From: Methanosarcina sp. 2.H.T.1A.6
GTDB lineage: Archaea; Halobacteriota; Methanosarcinia; Methanosarcinales; Methanosarcinaceae
DNA: 64,000 bases
Assembly: GCF_000979455.1 (NCBI RefSeq)
Contig: NZ_JJOY01000051.1
Location: 1-64,000, forward strand
Direction of reading: 5' to 3'
The position numbers and the translations under genes were made by a program. The notes under the pieces are model-generated. The model was not told the DNA's origin, did not search any database, and worked only from the letters and a program-made list of their open reading frames with translations. This document shows positions 1 to 8,627 of this stretch, piece by piece; position 1 is the stretch's first letter; each line of letters begins with the position of its first letter.

Positions 1-126
1 GTCCTATCCGATGTCCACCTGCTCCGAAGATATGTCCCCCCGGTCCTATCCGATGTCCACCTGCTCCGAAGATATGTCCCCCCGGTCCTATCCGATGTCC
101 ACCTGCTCCGAAGATATGTCCGCCTG
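1..126 (+). repeat. 42-bp tandem repeat, three copies plus a degenerate fourth
   Basis: Units start at 1, 43 and 85. The first two are identical and the third diverges at its end; a partial fourth runs to about 150. The period is a multiple of three, so the repeat encodes a 14-residue peptide unit without shifting frame. The array is cut by the left edge of the window, so its full copy number is unknown. Confidence 0.9.
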
Positions 127-434
127 CTCCTATCCGATGCCCCCCTGCTCCATTACCCAGTTGCCCTGTTCCAGTTATTATCCCACCAATAGAGCCTGAG
201 GATCCCCTTGTCCCAGTCACGATTATGGTCCCAAAATCAACCGCTGAAGCATGGATGGCTTCTGGCAAGCAGGATGAATTAAGTCCTGAGGATGCACATC
301 AGTATGCGCTCCAGGCTGCAGAAGAGGCTTACTGCGCTGCTCTGGAAGAGTTGGGCATGGCTGGTGAATATTCCGGGTTCCCCAGCGTCAAGGGCTGTAA
401 GAAAGGTGCATTTGATCCCAGCGCAAAAGAATAA
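1..434 (+). CDS. Cys/Pro-rich repeat protein, 3' part; candidate substrate of the adjacent radical SAM enzyme
   Basis: The frame starting at base 3 is open from the window edge to a TAA at 432-434 (143 residues visible, 5' end missing). It begins with a 14-residue unit, PIRCPPAPKICPPG, seen three times and then decaying (PIRCPPAPLPSC), followed by a Pro/acidic linker and a helical Cys-containing tail that ends in FDPSAKE. The other two forward frames through the repeat stop at 192 and 199, whereas this one runs on into the acidic tail, so I take it as the coding frame. A separate start at ATG 225 would give only the 69-residue tail. A PqqD-type radical SAM gene lies 54 bp downstream. I do not recognise a family. 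The reading as a RiPP precursor or a cysteine-rich substrate is inference from context and Cys spacing; an N-terminal core followed by a C-terminal conserved part would be unusual. Confidence 0.6.
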   Translation, partial: PIRCPPAPKICPPGPIRCPPAPKICPPGPIRCPPAPKICPPAPIRCPPAPLPSCPVPVIIPPIEPEDPLVPVTIMVPKSTAEAWMASGKQDELSPEDAHQYALQAAEEAYCAALEELGMAGEYSGFPSVKGCKKGAFDPSAKE

Positions 435-443
435 AACATTCTG

Positions 444-470
444 GATCCGGGAGGAATTCTCTCCCGGGTT
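444..470 (+). terminator. GC-rich hairpin between repeat protein and radical SAM gene
   Basis: CCGGGAG (447-453) pairs with CTCCCGG (461-467) and the stem can extend outward by two or three weaker pairs. It sits 10 bp after the stop of the repeat protein and about 20 bp before the radical SAM start. It lacks a long T tract, so it could be a processing or partial-termination hairpin that lowers expression of the enzyme relative to its putative substrate. Confidence 0.5.
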
Positions 471-488
471 CTTTCAGGTGGGTATTAG

Positions 489-1835
489 ATGCTGATACTA
501 AACAATCTAAATGATAATGATTTTCCATATTTTCCATATCCTCTTCAGGAATCCGGGAATGAGGACGATTATATCACAACAAATCACCTCATGGCCAGGC
601 CTATTCGATTGAACCGGCAGGCAGCTGAAGTTCTCCGACTCGCAGATGGCGTAACACAACTTTCAGATATTATTGGTCATATCGTAGAGTTATATCCTGA
701 TGCTGGTGGGTCCGAAGTTATCAAACCAGGGGTTCTGGAACTCCTCAGGATATTAACCGAAAGAGAACTTATCTGGTGGCGTGGGGTTCCCGCCCTGCCG
801 GTTCCTGTCCAGCCGCCGCAGAGCATTTTCTGGGAGATTACTGCAGCATGCAATCTTCGGTGTCTGCACTGTGTAGTCGGTGCAGGCCCTAAACTGGAAG
901 AAGAACTTTCCACCAGCAAGTGCCTTGAGCTAGCAGAGGAACTTGCTGCTTTTGGGGTAAAAAATATAGCCTTTAGCGGTGGAGAGCCTTTACTACGTCC
1001 TGATTTTTTTACCATTGCAGAAAAGGTTCGGGAACTAGGGATGGGTGTCCAGGTGGCAACAAACGGAACTCTCATAACACCTCAGATTGCTCATCACCTC
1101 ATGAACCTGGATGCGGATGTACAGGTGAGCCTTGATGGTTCAAGACCTGAGATCTATGATATCCTGCGCCCAGGGCAAAAAGCGTTTACTAAATGTATTG
1201 AAGGTATCCAGGCCCTGGTTGCAGAAGGGCATCAGGTCACTATTGGCACTGTGCTCTCATCTATAAATATCAAAGATATTCCAGAAATTGTGGCACTTAC
1301 AGAGCGACTCGGAGCTACAGCATTTCGGCTTATCCCTTTTGTTCCAAAAGGTCGAGGACAACTGCATAAAGATATGGAGGTGCCTTTAGCACAGGTCAAG
1401 GAAATAGTCCAGTATCTTCATGATATGAGGGAACGTACCAGACTTCAGATTTCACCACTTGAATTTGAAGATATGCTTGATGGAAGCCTGTGCCCAGATC
1501 CTCTAGTACCTGAGATGCCTCTCAAGTGCGGGGGTGCAGTTGAGTATGGAACTATTACTCCTGCTGGAGAAGTACTTACATGTCATTTCTTTGAGGGTGT
1601 ACGGGCAGATAATATTCGCTCTGCTTCATTTCGTGATGTATGGTACCGCTCACGTTTCCTGAATTATTTTAGGAGCCTGAGAGTATCGGACCTGCATGGT
1701 AACTGTTCCGCCTGTACTTGGCTTCCCAGGTGTGCCGGAAGCTGCCGAGCAGTGAATTATGCAAAGGGTGATCTTTTTGGAGGCAACAAGTCGTGCTGGG
1801 CCTCACAAAATACAACAGAAGCAAGGTTGAAGTAA
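489..1835 (+). CDS. PqqD-radical SAM-SPASM peptide/protein maturase
   Basis: A 448-residue enzyme. Residues ~33-98 resemble a PqqD/RRE peptide-binding domain. The radical SAM core follows with the [4Fe-4S] motif CNLRCLHC (Cys121, 125, 128) and the SAM-binding GGEP at ~164. A C-terminal SPASM region carries seven cysteines in the expected order (KCGG, LTCHF, NCSAC, RCAGSC, SCW), which in this family bind two auxiliary clusters. The stretch around the first motif recalls maturases such as MftC and PqqE. The ATG at 489 is preceded by AGGTGGG at a normal distance. Members install thioether, C-C or related bonds in ribosomal peptides. The Cys/Pro repeat protein just upstream is the obvious candidate substrate, though that link is inferred. 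The function class is well supported; the product is unknown. Confidence 0.88.
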   Translation: MLILNNLNDNDFPYFPYPLQESGNEDDYITTNHLMARPIRLNRQAAEVLRLADGVTQLSDIIGHIVELYPDAGGSEVIKPGVLELLRILTERELIWWRGVPALPVPVQPPQSIFWEITAACNLRCLHCVVGAGPKLEEELSTSKCLELAEELAAFGVKNIAFSGGEPLLRPDFFTIAEKVRELGMGVQVATNGTLITPQIAHHLMNLDADVQVSLDGSRPEIYDILRPGQKAFTKCIEGIQALVAEGHQVTIGTVLSSINIKDIPEIVALTERLGATAFRLIPFVPKGRGQLHKDMEVPLAQVKEIVQYLHDMRERTRLQISPLEFEDMLDGSLCPDPLVPEMPLKCGGAVEYGTITPAGEVLTCHFFEGVRADNIRSASFRDVWYRSRFLNYFRSLRVSDLHGNCSACTWLPRCAGSCRAVNYAKGDLFGGNKSCWASQNTTEARLK

Positions 1836-1860
1836 CATAAGTTAAACATAATATAATAGC

Positions 1861-2181
1861 ATGATTGTCGTGGATGTTATCTTCCGTTCTGCAACAGGGG
1901 AATCGATCCTTCTAAAAGAGCCATCAGAAGATCGTAATTTCACTCGATATGCGGCAACTAAAGAGACTCAGGATGAAGCGGTTAAAGCACTGACCGGATT
2001 GGGATTTGAATTAGTAGGCCCGCCATCGCAATATGGGGTATCGATCTCTGGTCCTTCTCAATTAGTGCACGAAGTATTTGGGGATGAACCATTTACTGTT
2101 CCCAGGTCTTTAGCAAAGTGGGTCGAAGCTGTTCGGATACCACCACCTGTGGAGTTTTATGGAAAGGGTCTGGATGAATAA
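1861..2181 (+). CDS. small hypothetical protein, possibly like the pro-domain of sedolisin/subtilase proteases
   Basis: A 106-residue soluble protein 25 bp downstream of the radical SAM gene on the same strand. It is probably the third gene of the cassette, although no clear ribosome site is seen before the ATG. The pattern of a helix, a strand ending GFELVGPP, then GVSISGPSQLVHEVFG and TVPRSLAKWVEAVRI, resembles the activation pro-domain of S53 proteases (short strand, 'SG' turn, helix ending in FG, then V-P-x-x-L). No protease domain is attached or encoded nearby in the window. It could bind or present the modified product, or act as an inhibitor or chaperone. The resemblance is my own pattern reading and needs a profile search; the gene itself is likely real because of its position and length. 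Confidence 0.6.
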   Translation: MIVVDVIFRSATGESILLKEPSEDRNFTRYAATKETQDEAVKALTGLGFELVGPPSQYGVSISGPSQLVHEVFGDEPFTVPRSLAKWVEAVRIPPPVEFYGKGLDE

Positions 2182-6721: not shown

Positions 6722-7210
6722 TCAGTTTACATTTCCAGATCCGTTCACAATGGAGACAAGTTTTATTTCAAGGATCAGGGTTTTGCCTGCAAGTTCATGG
6801 TTGAAGTCAAGGGTTGCGTAAGTTTCCGTGGAATCGAGCACTTTAACTTCACTTCCCCCAGGCGTTATTATTTTTTTTCCTGCCTCCGGAGGGTACTTTA
6901 GTTCAAGTCTTGAAAGAGGAATTTTCTGAACGAGATAACTTTTAGATTCTCCGTAGGCGTCTTCAGGCACGATTTCAAGGGTTTTTTCTTCTCCTTCTCG
7001 CATTCCAAGAACCCCGTCATCGATACCTTTTATCACCTGACCGGTGTATGTCCTGAAAAATAAAGGTGTGTATTCTTTTTCTTCATCATATATGCCAGCC
7101 TCAAGAGCTTTTTCTTTTAAGGTGGTATCGAATACTGTTCCGTTCTCAAGGTTTCCAGTATAATCAATAAGGAGATAATCTCCCTTTTTCACAGTACGAG
7201 AGTTCTCCAT
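6722..7210 (-). CDS. FKBP-type peptidyl-prolyl cis-trans isomerase (SlyD-like), copy 1
   Basis: A 162-residue cytoplasmic FKBP. It has the canonical opening (GDYLLIDYTGNLENGTVFDTT), the Q-V-I-K-G-I-D-D-G-V-L-GM core, and an archaeal IF insert before the LDFNHELAGKTL motif that closes the FKBP fold. The longer frame to 7279 was not used because GGAG sits six to nine bases before ATG 7210 (MENSRTVKKGDY). It is the most downstream of three FKBP genes in tandem on this strand and is the most diverged, with TYTGQVI where the others have TxGAGQMI. Confidence 0.88.
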   Translation of the reverse strand: MENSRTVKKGDYLLIDYTGNLENGTVFDTTLKEKALEAGIYDEEKEYTPLFFRTYTGQVIKGIDDGVLGMREGEEKTLEIVPEDAYGESKSYLVQKIPLSRLELKYPPEAGKKIITPGGSEVKVLDSTETYATLDFNHELAGKTLILEIKLVSIVNGSGNVN

Positions 7211-7344
7211 TGTTCCTTCTCCTGCTAATTTTTTTTCTTTACAGTTTTTTCCGGCAGTCCTTATTCTTTTCCTGGTCACCAGAGGAGTGCATCTTTTTTA
7301 ATGAAATATAAGCCGGTTTTAAACCGGTTTAACTGATGTAAGCT

Positions 7345-7905
7345 TCATTCTATTGAAATAAGCTTTATATCGAAAATCAGAGTCTTGCCTGCGAGTTCGT
7401 GGTTAGAGTCAAAAGTAACATGCGTTTCATTTACATCAATGACTCGGAACTGTCCCCCGTACATACTGCTGAATGTCTGTCCGATTTCAGGTTTCACTGA
7501 CAGGTTCAGGTCCTCAAGGGGGACGGCCTGAATTTTTGCTTCATCATATTCTCCGTAAGCTTTTTCAGGGGGAATTGTAATGGTTTTTTCTTCTCCTTTT
7601 TTCATCCCGATTACGCCCTCGTCAAAACCCGGAATCATCTGACCTGCACCAGCTGTAAAGGCGAGGGGGCTGTAATTTCTTTCCTGATTATATGTGCCTG
7701 CTTCCTGTGCTACCTCTTTTATTGAAGTGTCAAAAACTGTGCCGTCTTCGAGTTTTCCCACATAGTCTACCTGGACGTTATCACCGGCCTTTACAGCTCT
7801 GCTTTCCCCTGTCACATCCCCTTTATCCGTGCATCCGCTTCCAAGGATTATGCTCCCCAGAAGCAGCATGGACAGGAAAAAAATTGTCCCCCTCCCCGCC
7901 CTCAT
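7345..7905 (-). CDS. FKBP-type prolyl isomerase, exported lipoprotein, copy 2
   Basis: A 186-residue protein with a signal peptide ending in a lipobox-like LGSGC (residues ~21-25) and then an FKBP domain: VDYVGKLEDGTVFDTS, GAGQMIPGFDEGVIGM, FDSNHELAGKTL. The lipobox predicts an isomerase held on the outer face of the membrane, useful for folding secreted or S-layer proteins. GGAGG lies 8 bases before ATG 7905, inside the three-base gap after the upstream FKBP gene, so the two are translationally coupled. Confidence 0.9.
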   Translation of the reverse strand: MRAGRGTIFFLSMLLLGSIILGSGCTDKGDVTGESRAVKAGDNVQVDYVGKLEDGTVFDTSIKEVAQEAGTYNQERNYSPLAFTAGAGQMIPGFDEGVIGMKKGEEKTITIPPEKAYGEYDEAKIQAVPLEDLNLSVKPEIGQTFSSMYGGQFRVIDVNETHVTFDSNHELAGKTLIFDIKLISIE

Positions 7906-7908
7906 TTT

Positions 7909-8391
7909 TTATGCCTCCATCGAAACGACTTTTATTTTGAATATCAGGGTCTTGCCTGCGAGCTCATGGTTGAAGTCCACAATGAAGTTTTCCTCGCTTA
8001 CCTCTGTGATAGTGCCCCTGAGTCCGGTTTCCGTAGCCAGCTGCATCCCTACTTCCGGAGTAAAATCCACAGCATTACATGGCAGTTCCCTTGCGTACTC
8101 TTTCATATATTCTCCGTACGCTTCCTCGGGAGGAATTGTAATGGTTTTTTCTTCTCCCACTTTCATTCCGACCACACCCTCGTCAAAGCCTTTAATCATC
8201 TGCCCCGCTCCCACGGTGAATGTCAGAGGATTGTAGTCTCTCATTTCGTTGTATATACCTGCCTCAGCGGCAGCTTCCTTTTCCGATGTATCGAAAACTG
8301 TGCCATCTTCCAGTTTTCCCACATAATCAACGGAAATACTATCTCCGTTTTCGACTGGTTTGTTTAAATTTTTACTTATCTCTTCAGTCAT
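7909..8391 (-). CDS. FKBP-type prolyl isomerase (SlyD-like), copy 3
   Basis: A 160-residue cytoplasmic FKBP and the first gene of the three-gene FKBP run. Motifs: VDYVGKLEDGTVFDTSEKEAAAEAG, GAGQMIKGFDEGVVGMKVGEEKTI, VDFNHELAGKTL. The frame could begin nine bases earlier at a TTG (8400), but ATG 8391 (MTEEISKN) is the normal choice. It is closer to the lipoprotein copy than to copy 1, pointing to a local tandem duplication in which one copy gained a signal peptide. Confidence 0.88.
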   Translation of the reverse strand: MTEEISKNLNKPVENGDSISVDYVGKLEDGTVFDTSEKEAAAEAGIYNEMRDYNPLTFTVGAGQMIKGFDEGVVGMKVGEEKTITIPPEEAYGEYMKEYARELPCNAVDFTPEVGMQLATETGLRGTITEVSEENFIVDFNHELAGKTLIFKIKVVSMEA

Positions 8392-8627
8392 AATAATCAA
8401 TATGACAAAATGAGAGCATGTTAGATAAACATAATGATAAATAAGGTGTTAGAAACCGGTTAAAATGATTCCCGGAAATAGGAAACACAGGAAGCTTTAA
8501 ACCTTATTTTTTAAGTTTTGATTTCGAATTTCGATTTCTGTTAGTTCTCTCTTTTAGCCCTGCTCATTTTCTTTCATTCCTTTTTCCAGTCCATTTCGCT
8601 TTTTTCACCTACTTCTTTAATCTTCTT

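Follow-up and report, generated by a model that had tools for sequence, protein, structure and literature searches.

A family of PqqD-radical SAM-SPASM enzymes is encoded, in every carrier genome that we found, next to a protease gene that ends in an array of Cys-x-x-[Ala/Gly/Ser]-Pro units. We think it probable, with moderate confidence, that the enzyme staples these units by thioether links and that a leaderless protease thereby gains a stapled tail. The case for the array as the substrate of the enzyme is strong by inference: it is common to three otherwise unrelated proteases and would be their natural common substrate.

In the 64,000-nucleotide window (the whole stretch of archaeal DNA that was analyzed), base 1 is the edge of contig C9 of the window genome (G000), and the array gene is truncated there. 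Its reading frame (positions 3 to 434, plus strand) encodes three near-perfect 42-bp (14-amino-acid) units, CPPAPKICPPGPIR, followed by an acidic tail, as described in a sequence-only reading of this DNA. The array occupies positions 12 to 173 (plus strand), with the assembly break inside it and eight cysteines visible (codons at 12, 33, 54, 75, 96, 117, 138, and 162), and the acidic tail (174 to 434, plus strand) ends in ...GCKKGAFDPSAKE. The array is above chance expectation, as the frame holds seven C-x-x-[AGS]-P motifs, compared to two or fewer in each of the other open frames of the window and one or none in 20 Markov-simulated windows. The 42-bp array leaves several frames open on both strands at positions 1 to 180 because its period is a multiple of 3. 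Homologues exist for frame 3 only, which identifies it as the coding frame.

The missing front of the gene is found elsewhere in this assembly, on contig C31 (positions 2 to 1549, minus strand), which supplies the N-terminal 516 codons; they encode most of a subtilisin-like (S8) protease and run into the same array. The order along this frame is an N-terminal domain of ∼130 residues, the S8 catalytic domain, and the array. The end of C31 shares exact overlaps of 51 and 93 bases with the start of the window, as expected of a collapsed tandem repeat; joined at the longer overlap, should that be the true junction, the array would hold about 12 cysteines. In a close relative (G006), the whole cassette is on one contig, with an intact 632-residue orthologue at L028:5252-7150 (Pfam Peptidase_S8, E = 3.4e-28). 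The motifs of the Asp/His/Ser triad (DSG, GHGTG, and GTSSAAP) are invariant, as in subtilases. An AlphaFold prediction of the full-length S8 protein from four sequences reached a pLDDT of only 37 and was set aside. Recovery of the upstream sequence, which the sequence-only reading had proposed, also revises its claim that the repeats are N-terminal to the conserved part in a reversal of the usual leader-core order: the repeats are preceded by a prodomain and a catalytic domain, about 460 residues in all, and the order seemed reversed because the contig cut hides the front of the protease. A short RiPP precursor is ruled out as the identity of the repeat protein, since both C31 and the close relative show a protease.

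The gene downstream, after a gap of 54 bp, encodes an enzyme of 448 residues (489 to 1835, plus strand) with three Pfam domains above cut-offs. These are a PqqD (RRE-like) domain (residues 39 to 95; 603 to 773, plus strand; 6.5e-6), a radical SAM core matched at residues 116 to 269 (834 to 1295, plus strand; 6.3e-25) and containing the CX3CX2C motif as C121/C125/C128, and a SPASM domain matched at residues 351 to 410 (1539 to 1718, plus strand; 2e-6), the cysteines of which span residues 347 to 436. The seven SPASM cysteines (C347, C365, C406-x2-C409-x5-C415-x3-C419, and C436) are invariant in ten family members and form the pattern C..C-gap-CX2CX5CX3C-gap-C, which together with CX3CX2C is that of radical SAM-SPASM peptide maturases. 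Against a PqqD cut-off of 23.4 bits, the window enzyme scored 26.8, that of the bacterial genome G607 scored 38.6, and an M4-type enzyme (G034) scored 23.3, just below. Together with a gene for 106 amino acids on the same strand, these domains bear out the initial description of a PqqD-radical SAM-SPASM enzyme with seven SPASM cysteines followed by a small protein.

This third gene (1861 to 2181, plus strand) encodes a homologue of the S8 protease prodomain found in its own cassette. A direct search against the C31 prodomain gave 33% identity (E = 1e-5), and hhalign against the S8 prodomain gave a probability of 97 (E = 2.6e-11) over 97 columns. The top Foldseek matches of its predicted fold (mean pLDDT, 77) were the prodomain of tripeptidyl-peptidase 1 (TPP1), the inhibitor POIA1, and the ProteinT protease, all of them weak (E, ∼0.07 to 0.12). 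No Pfam or NCBIfam model matched the gene product, and a sequence search of the PDB returned nothing significant. Its homology suggests that it is probably a free-standing prodomain, acting as an inhibitor or folding chaperone of the S8 protease. An N-terminal hydrophobic segment is absent from all three types of array-bearing protease, which makes modification in the anaerobic cytoplasm plausible.

To map the distribution of the enzyme family, we searched 393 genomes of the host phylum and found it in 14 (E < 1e-229). Scanning GTDB contigs brought in a Deltaproteobacteria MAG (G452; enzyme identity, 59 to 60%), and a search of 395 genomes of the phylum of this MAG returned it together with two more carriers, G709 and G607. 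Including G006 and G454, the carriers number 19 distinct genomes (L035 and G436 are the same sequence and were counted once). The Cys/Pro array is on the gene immediately upstream of the enzyme in 19 of 19. The scan patterns, CNLRC[LKR]HC and one other, miss members such as that of G607 (CNLKCLHC), and the distribution is a lower bound. No family member was found in plasmid and viral collections or, at E 1e-90 and in searches run without a positive control, among 296 and 301 sampled genomes of two other bacterial phyla.

The array-bearing proteases (506 to 718 amino acids, with arrays of ∼10 to 16 units) belong to three unrelated types, all with intact catalytic motifs. An S8 protease is accompanied by the third gene in the window genome, its relative G006, the Deltaproteobacterium G452, and G709. 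In 14 genomes, all from one further genus in the archaeal family of the host, the array is instead on a thermolysin-like M4 protease with an FTP/PepSY propeptide and a helix-hairpin-helix-like C-terminal tail (weak Pfam matches). At these 14 loci no third gene was seen, and the cassettes consist of two genes only, overlapping by 4 bp. The remaining carrier, G607, encodes on a single contig an astacin (Pfam, 1.1e-45) whose array of 15 units leads into an acidic tail. The FDP-x-[AC] motif that ends the tail in the window also ends those of the bacterial S8 (GPFDPECDE) and astacin (EGFDPSCEG) cassettes, so that the S8 and astacin ends agree (FDPSAKE, FDPECDE, and FDPSCEG). The C-terminal tail, which might carry the recognition site, is of one kind in the M4 proteases and of another in the S8/astacin proteases.

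The enzyme family is sharply bounded: its members give E values below 1e-229, and the radical SAM proteins that come next do no better than 1e-84. Its tree groups by protease type and not by host: the Methanosarcinaceae S8 enzyme is 57 to 59% identical to the bacterial S8 enzymes and 39% identical to the M4 enzymes of its own family. Movement of the S8 cassette between archaea and bacteria, in either direction, would fit this grouping. Within the M4 genus, 13 genomes have both the enzyme and the M4-array gene and seven have neither (P = 1.3e-5 by Fisher's test), an association that reflects joint inheritance and not independent events, as the genes form one apparent operon.

Across 20 array segments from the 19 genomes, proline occupies position +4 of 198 of 217 array cysteines. 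Alanine, serine, or glycine is found at +3 in 52 of 57 cases in the S8 arrays, 15 of 16 in the astacin array, and 130 of 144 in the M4 arrays, where the 14 exceptions are one leading cysteine per protein. Positions +1 and +2 vary (PP, LR, YR, RR, and RV), as does unit spacing (mainly 6 to 9 residues), giving units such as CPPAPKI in the window genome, CLRGPIQ in G006, and CYRAPI in G452. Several types have similar final units (CLAGPWKRP, CWAGPYLRP, and CLPGPDPLP), and array length is nearly fixed among the M4 members. Compared with G006, the window enzyme is 96% and the third gene 98% identical, and the shared part of the protease is 92% identical between two close Methanosarcinaceae species whose array units differ. 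A C-x-x-[AGS]-P frame that stays fixed while its surroundings change fast is the pattern expected of a unit that an enzyme both recognizes and acts on.

As a control, we examined the next-best radical SAM loci and found an array at none of 84, of which 78 came from GTDB and 6 from the search of the host phylum. When 295 archaeal genomes were scanned with a DNA pattern for CPP[A/S]P-x2-CPP, 12 matched; 10 of these are carriers, with the matches inside the cassette, and the other 2 are lone chance matches without an array. The reversed pattern matched once. Among these 295 genomes, the CPP-type unit thus forms arrays only in cassette carriers, and within the window genome a search for substrate arrays in trans with this pattern matched the array gene only. 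The earlier proposal that array and enzyme belong together emerges stronger than it was put, as it holds in all 19 genomes despite three unrelated proteases; homologues of the enzyme lacking a Cys/Pro-rich neighbor, which would have spoken against it, did not turn up among them.

A stem-loop is predicted between the protease and radical SAM genes (443 to 471, plus strand; RNA fold z = −2.25). The four other S8/astacin cassettes (L028, L034, L149, and L150) have one in the same place (z values of −3.1, −3.2, −3.0, and −7.1), making five of five although the sequence differs. By eye, pairing in the G452 and G709 hairpins has apparently been kept through changes on both sides. The stem-loop is a possible partial terminator or processing site and could yield more protease than enzyme.

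The surroundings of the cassettes offer several further observations. In the astacin cassette, a gene for 113 amino acids (L150:2887-3228, minus strand; YscW/PF09619 match below cut-off) starts ∼20 bp past the radical SAM gene and perhaps replaces the prodomain gene as a partner of the protease. The array astacin itself (L150:4728-6248, minus strand) is just above the NCBIfam cut-off for the LegP metalloprotease (302.4 versus 300), pointing to a leaderless LegP-like astacin in this bacterial genome. A conserved Cys-containing protein of 780 amino acids with no Pfam family (L034:5201-7555, minus strand; L149:1964-4303, plus strand) and a BTAD-domain transcriptional regulator (L149:8472-9482, minus strand) are encoded on the flanks of each of the two bacterial S8 cassettes. 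Three genomes have a chagasin-family (I42) protease inhibitor gene near their M4 cassette or immediately upstream of it (L151:7509-8261, minus strand, and similar genes at L030:12417-13142 and L032:12604-13356), the family having been tested in L151 only. Elsewhere in the window (6722 to 8400, minus strand), three consecutive genes appear by eye to encode FKBP-like peptidyl-prolyl isomerases.

From these data we propose the following model for the window cassette, which comprises a leaderless S8 protease with a C-terminal array, the PqqD-radical SAM-SPASM enzyme, and a free-standing prodomain. The enzyme would bind the protease through its PqqD domain and work along the array, one unit after another. 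In each unit, the sulfur of the cysteine would bond with a carbon atom, either of the small +3 residue or of the +4 proline, with the loss of two hydrogens; the short intramolecular link is probably a thioether. The conservation of Cys and Pro does not by itself specify the bond, and we pick neither acceptor. We found no report of proline as a thioether acceptor in the literature examined. The product would be a protease with a rigid, proteolysis-resistant, stapled proline-rich tail. What the tail does is the weakest step of the model: it might serve as a stalk or anchor, or it might be a flexible tail shielded from the activity of the protease itself. Judging by homology, the free prodomain may silence the protease in the cytoplasm or aid its folding.

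The main rival reading is a genuine RiPP pathway, with the protease serving as leader and as leader peptidase at once: after modification it would cut itself and release the crosslinked array or its single units as a signal or antimicrobial peptide. In its favor, the core is fused to three different proteases, all with intact catalytic motifs; known leader peptidases include S8 proteases (PMC10885120); and QhpE, a cytosolic S8 protease, processes a radical SAM-crosslinked protein in a single turnover (PMC7876137). Release nevertheless seems unlikely, if worth keeping in mind, as neither the M4 nor the S8 loci have a transporter or immunity gene, the M4 cassettes are limited to two genes, and the M4 arrays are nearly fixed in length; the conserved C-terminal domain after the array would, moreover, be freed as well. 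The absence of transporter and immunity genes, along with this domain, leads us to favor a stapled tail that is retained on the protease over peptide release.

The modification could also differ from that in our model or fall outside the array. SPASM enzymes have varied chemistry, and the array might carry a C-C bond, an epimerization, or an oxidation at proline or alanine in place of a thioether. TvgB, for example, makes cyclopropylglycine in a repeated TVGG core (PMC9062424). Cysteine is present in every unit across the three protease types while +1 and +2 vary, which points to the thiol as a reactant and renders a thioether-free product rather doubtful. An array left unmodified, as a metal-binding or disulfide-rich tail, with the enzyme acting elsewhere on the protease or on another substrate, strikes us as improbable. 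Cys-rich arrays can bind metals, and a GCDCNCGCGCC stretch is also present in the astacin tail, but the proline at +4 is nearly as conserved as the cysteine, and neither metal binding nor disulfides need it. The protease domains are unrelated and hence offer no other common site, and no separate small peptide gene is common to all cassettes. Least credible, to the point that we give it almost no weight, is a heme or cofactor biosynthesis protein located beside a protease by chance. The best single-model similarities of the enzyme in NCBIfam are indeed to the AhbD, mycofactocin, and NirJ2 maturases, but all are far under the curated cut-offs (AhbD, 183.9 versus 500 bits), the window genome has other SPASM homologues elsewhere (e.g., on C1), and the enzyme is associated with the array in 19 of 19 genomes.

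Radical SAM-SPASM enzymes are known mainly as maturases of small peptides, of a few protein cofactors, and of sulfatases. The family described here goes with a simple repeat on three unrelated proteases, in archaea as well as bacteria, and this makes the substrate, the recognition motif, and the product predictable and testable together. We suggest, more tentatively than the stapling itself, that three or more unrelated protease families independently gained an array stapled by a dedicated SPASM enzyme, possibly with proline as acceptor, and that the crosslinked tail is a portable add-on for archaeal and bacterial proteases and not a released natural product. If true, full-size enzymes would carry a tail modified by radical chemistry, repeated crosslinking would have a case in archaea, proline might prove to be an acceptor, and a portable stapling tag would be on offer.

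The array-protease/radical SAM pairing appears to be undescribed: we found no system joining a radical SAM enzyme to a subtilase or astacin array in the PubMed Central literature, a scope that leaves most subscription papers outside. One candidate, a Red Sea fosmid paper (PMC6423787), was rejected, as its subtilase and radical SAM gene are on separate scaffolds with no link between them. As in a RiPP system, an encoded putative substrate lies next to the modifying enzyme (19 of 19 cassettes versus 0 of 84 control loci), whereas the short precursor with leader and core is replaced by proteases of 506 to 718 amino acids, the core being their tail. The label "RiPP-type" of the sequence-only reading is apt for the modification logic and provisional for the product, and the array is the C-terminal tail of a protease, not a small precursor peptide.

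In ranthipeptides of the freyrasin type, PapB crosslinks Cys-x3-Asp in PapA (PMC9413430), and the cassette resembles this system in having a SPASM enzyme and units in line that repeat a cysteine and an invariant residue four positions on. Unlike the cassette, PapA has Asp/Glu where proline is found here (Cys-x3-Pro, not Cys-x3-Asp/Glu) and is a small peptide and not a protease, and the enzyme scores 85 bits against the 340 of the PapB family model (NF047865). Streptosactin has an unnested i/i+3 sactionine ring, Cys31-Gly34 (PMC8172795), the size of which would match a link to the small residue at +3, and its maturase StsB is likewise a radical SAM-SPASM enzyme. The presumed substrate in the cassette differs in being a protease-fused array of ∼10 to 16 units, and the enzyme scores 132.6 versus 625 bits against the sactipeptide (StsB family) model NF045574. 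To our knowledge, Cys/Pro arrays and radical SAM partners are not known from protealysin/emfourin or from systems with the I9-type inhibitor POIA1. Their likeness to the cassette is in the leaderless M4 or S8 protease, protealysin being an intracellular one with a cognate inhibitor gene, emfourin (PMC9505478), just as the S8 operon here has a putative inhibitor gene.

With QhpD/QhpE of quinohemoprotein amine dehydrogenase (PMC7876137), the cassette shares a radical SAM thioether inside a protein (predicted here) and a cytosolic S8 protease in the operon. The S8 protease scores 54 versus 165 bits against the QhpE model, and no qhp structural genes were recognized beside the cassette. As the enzyme reaches none of the listed curated NCBIfam cut-offs, those for AhbD, mycofactocin, PapB, and StsB among them, and no describing paper was found in PubMed Central, we do not file the system in a named RiPP class; by its sequence features, it would be a variant of radical SAM-dependent peptide or protein modification. 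The roles of the two proteases differ: QhpE processes a crosslinked subunit, while the cassette protease itself carries the presumed crosslinked part.
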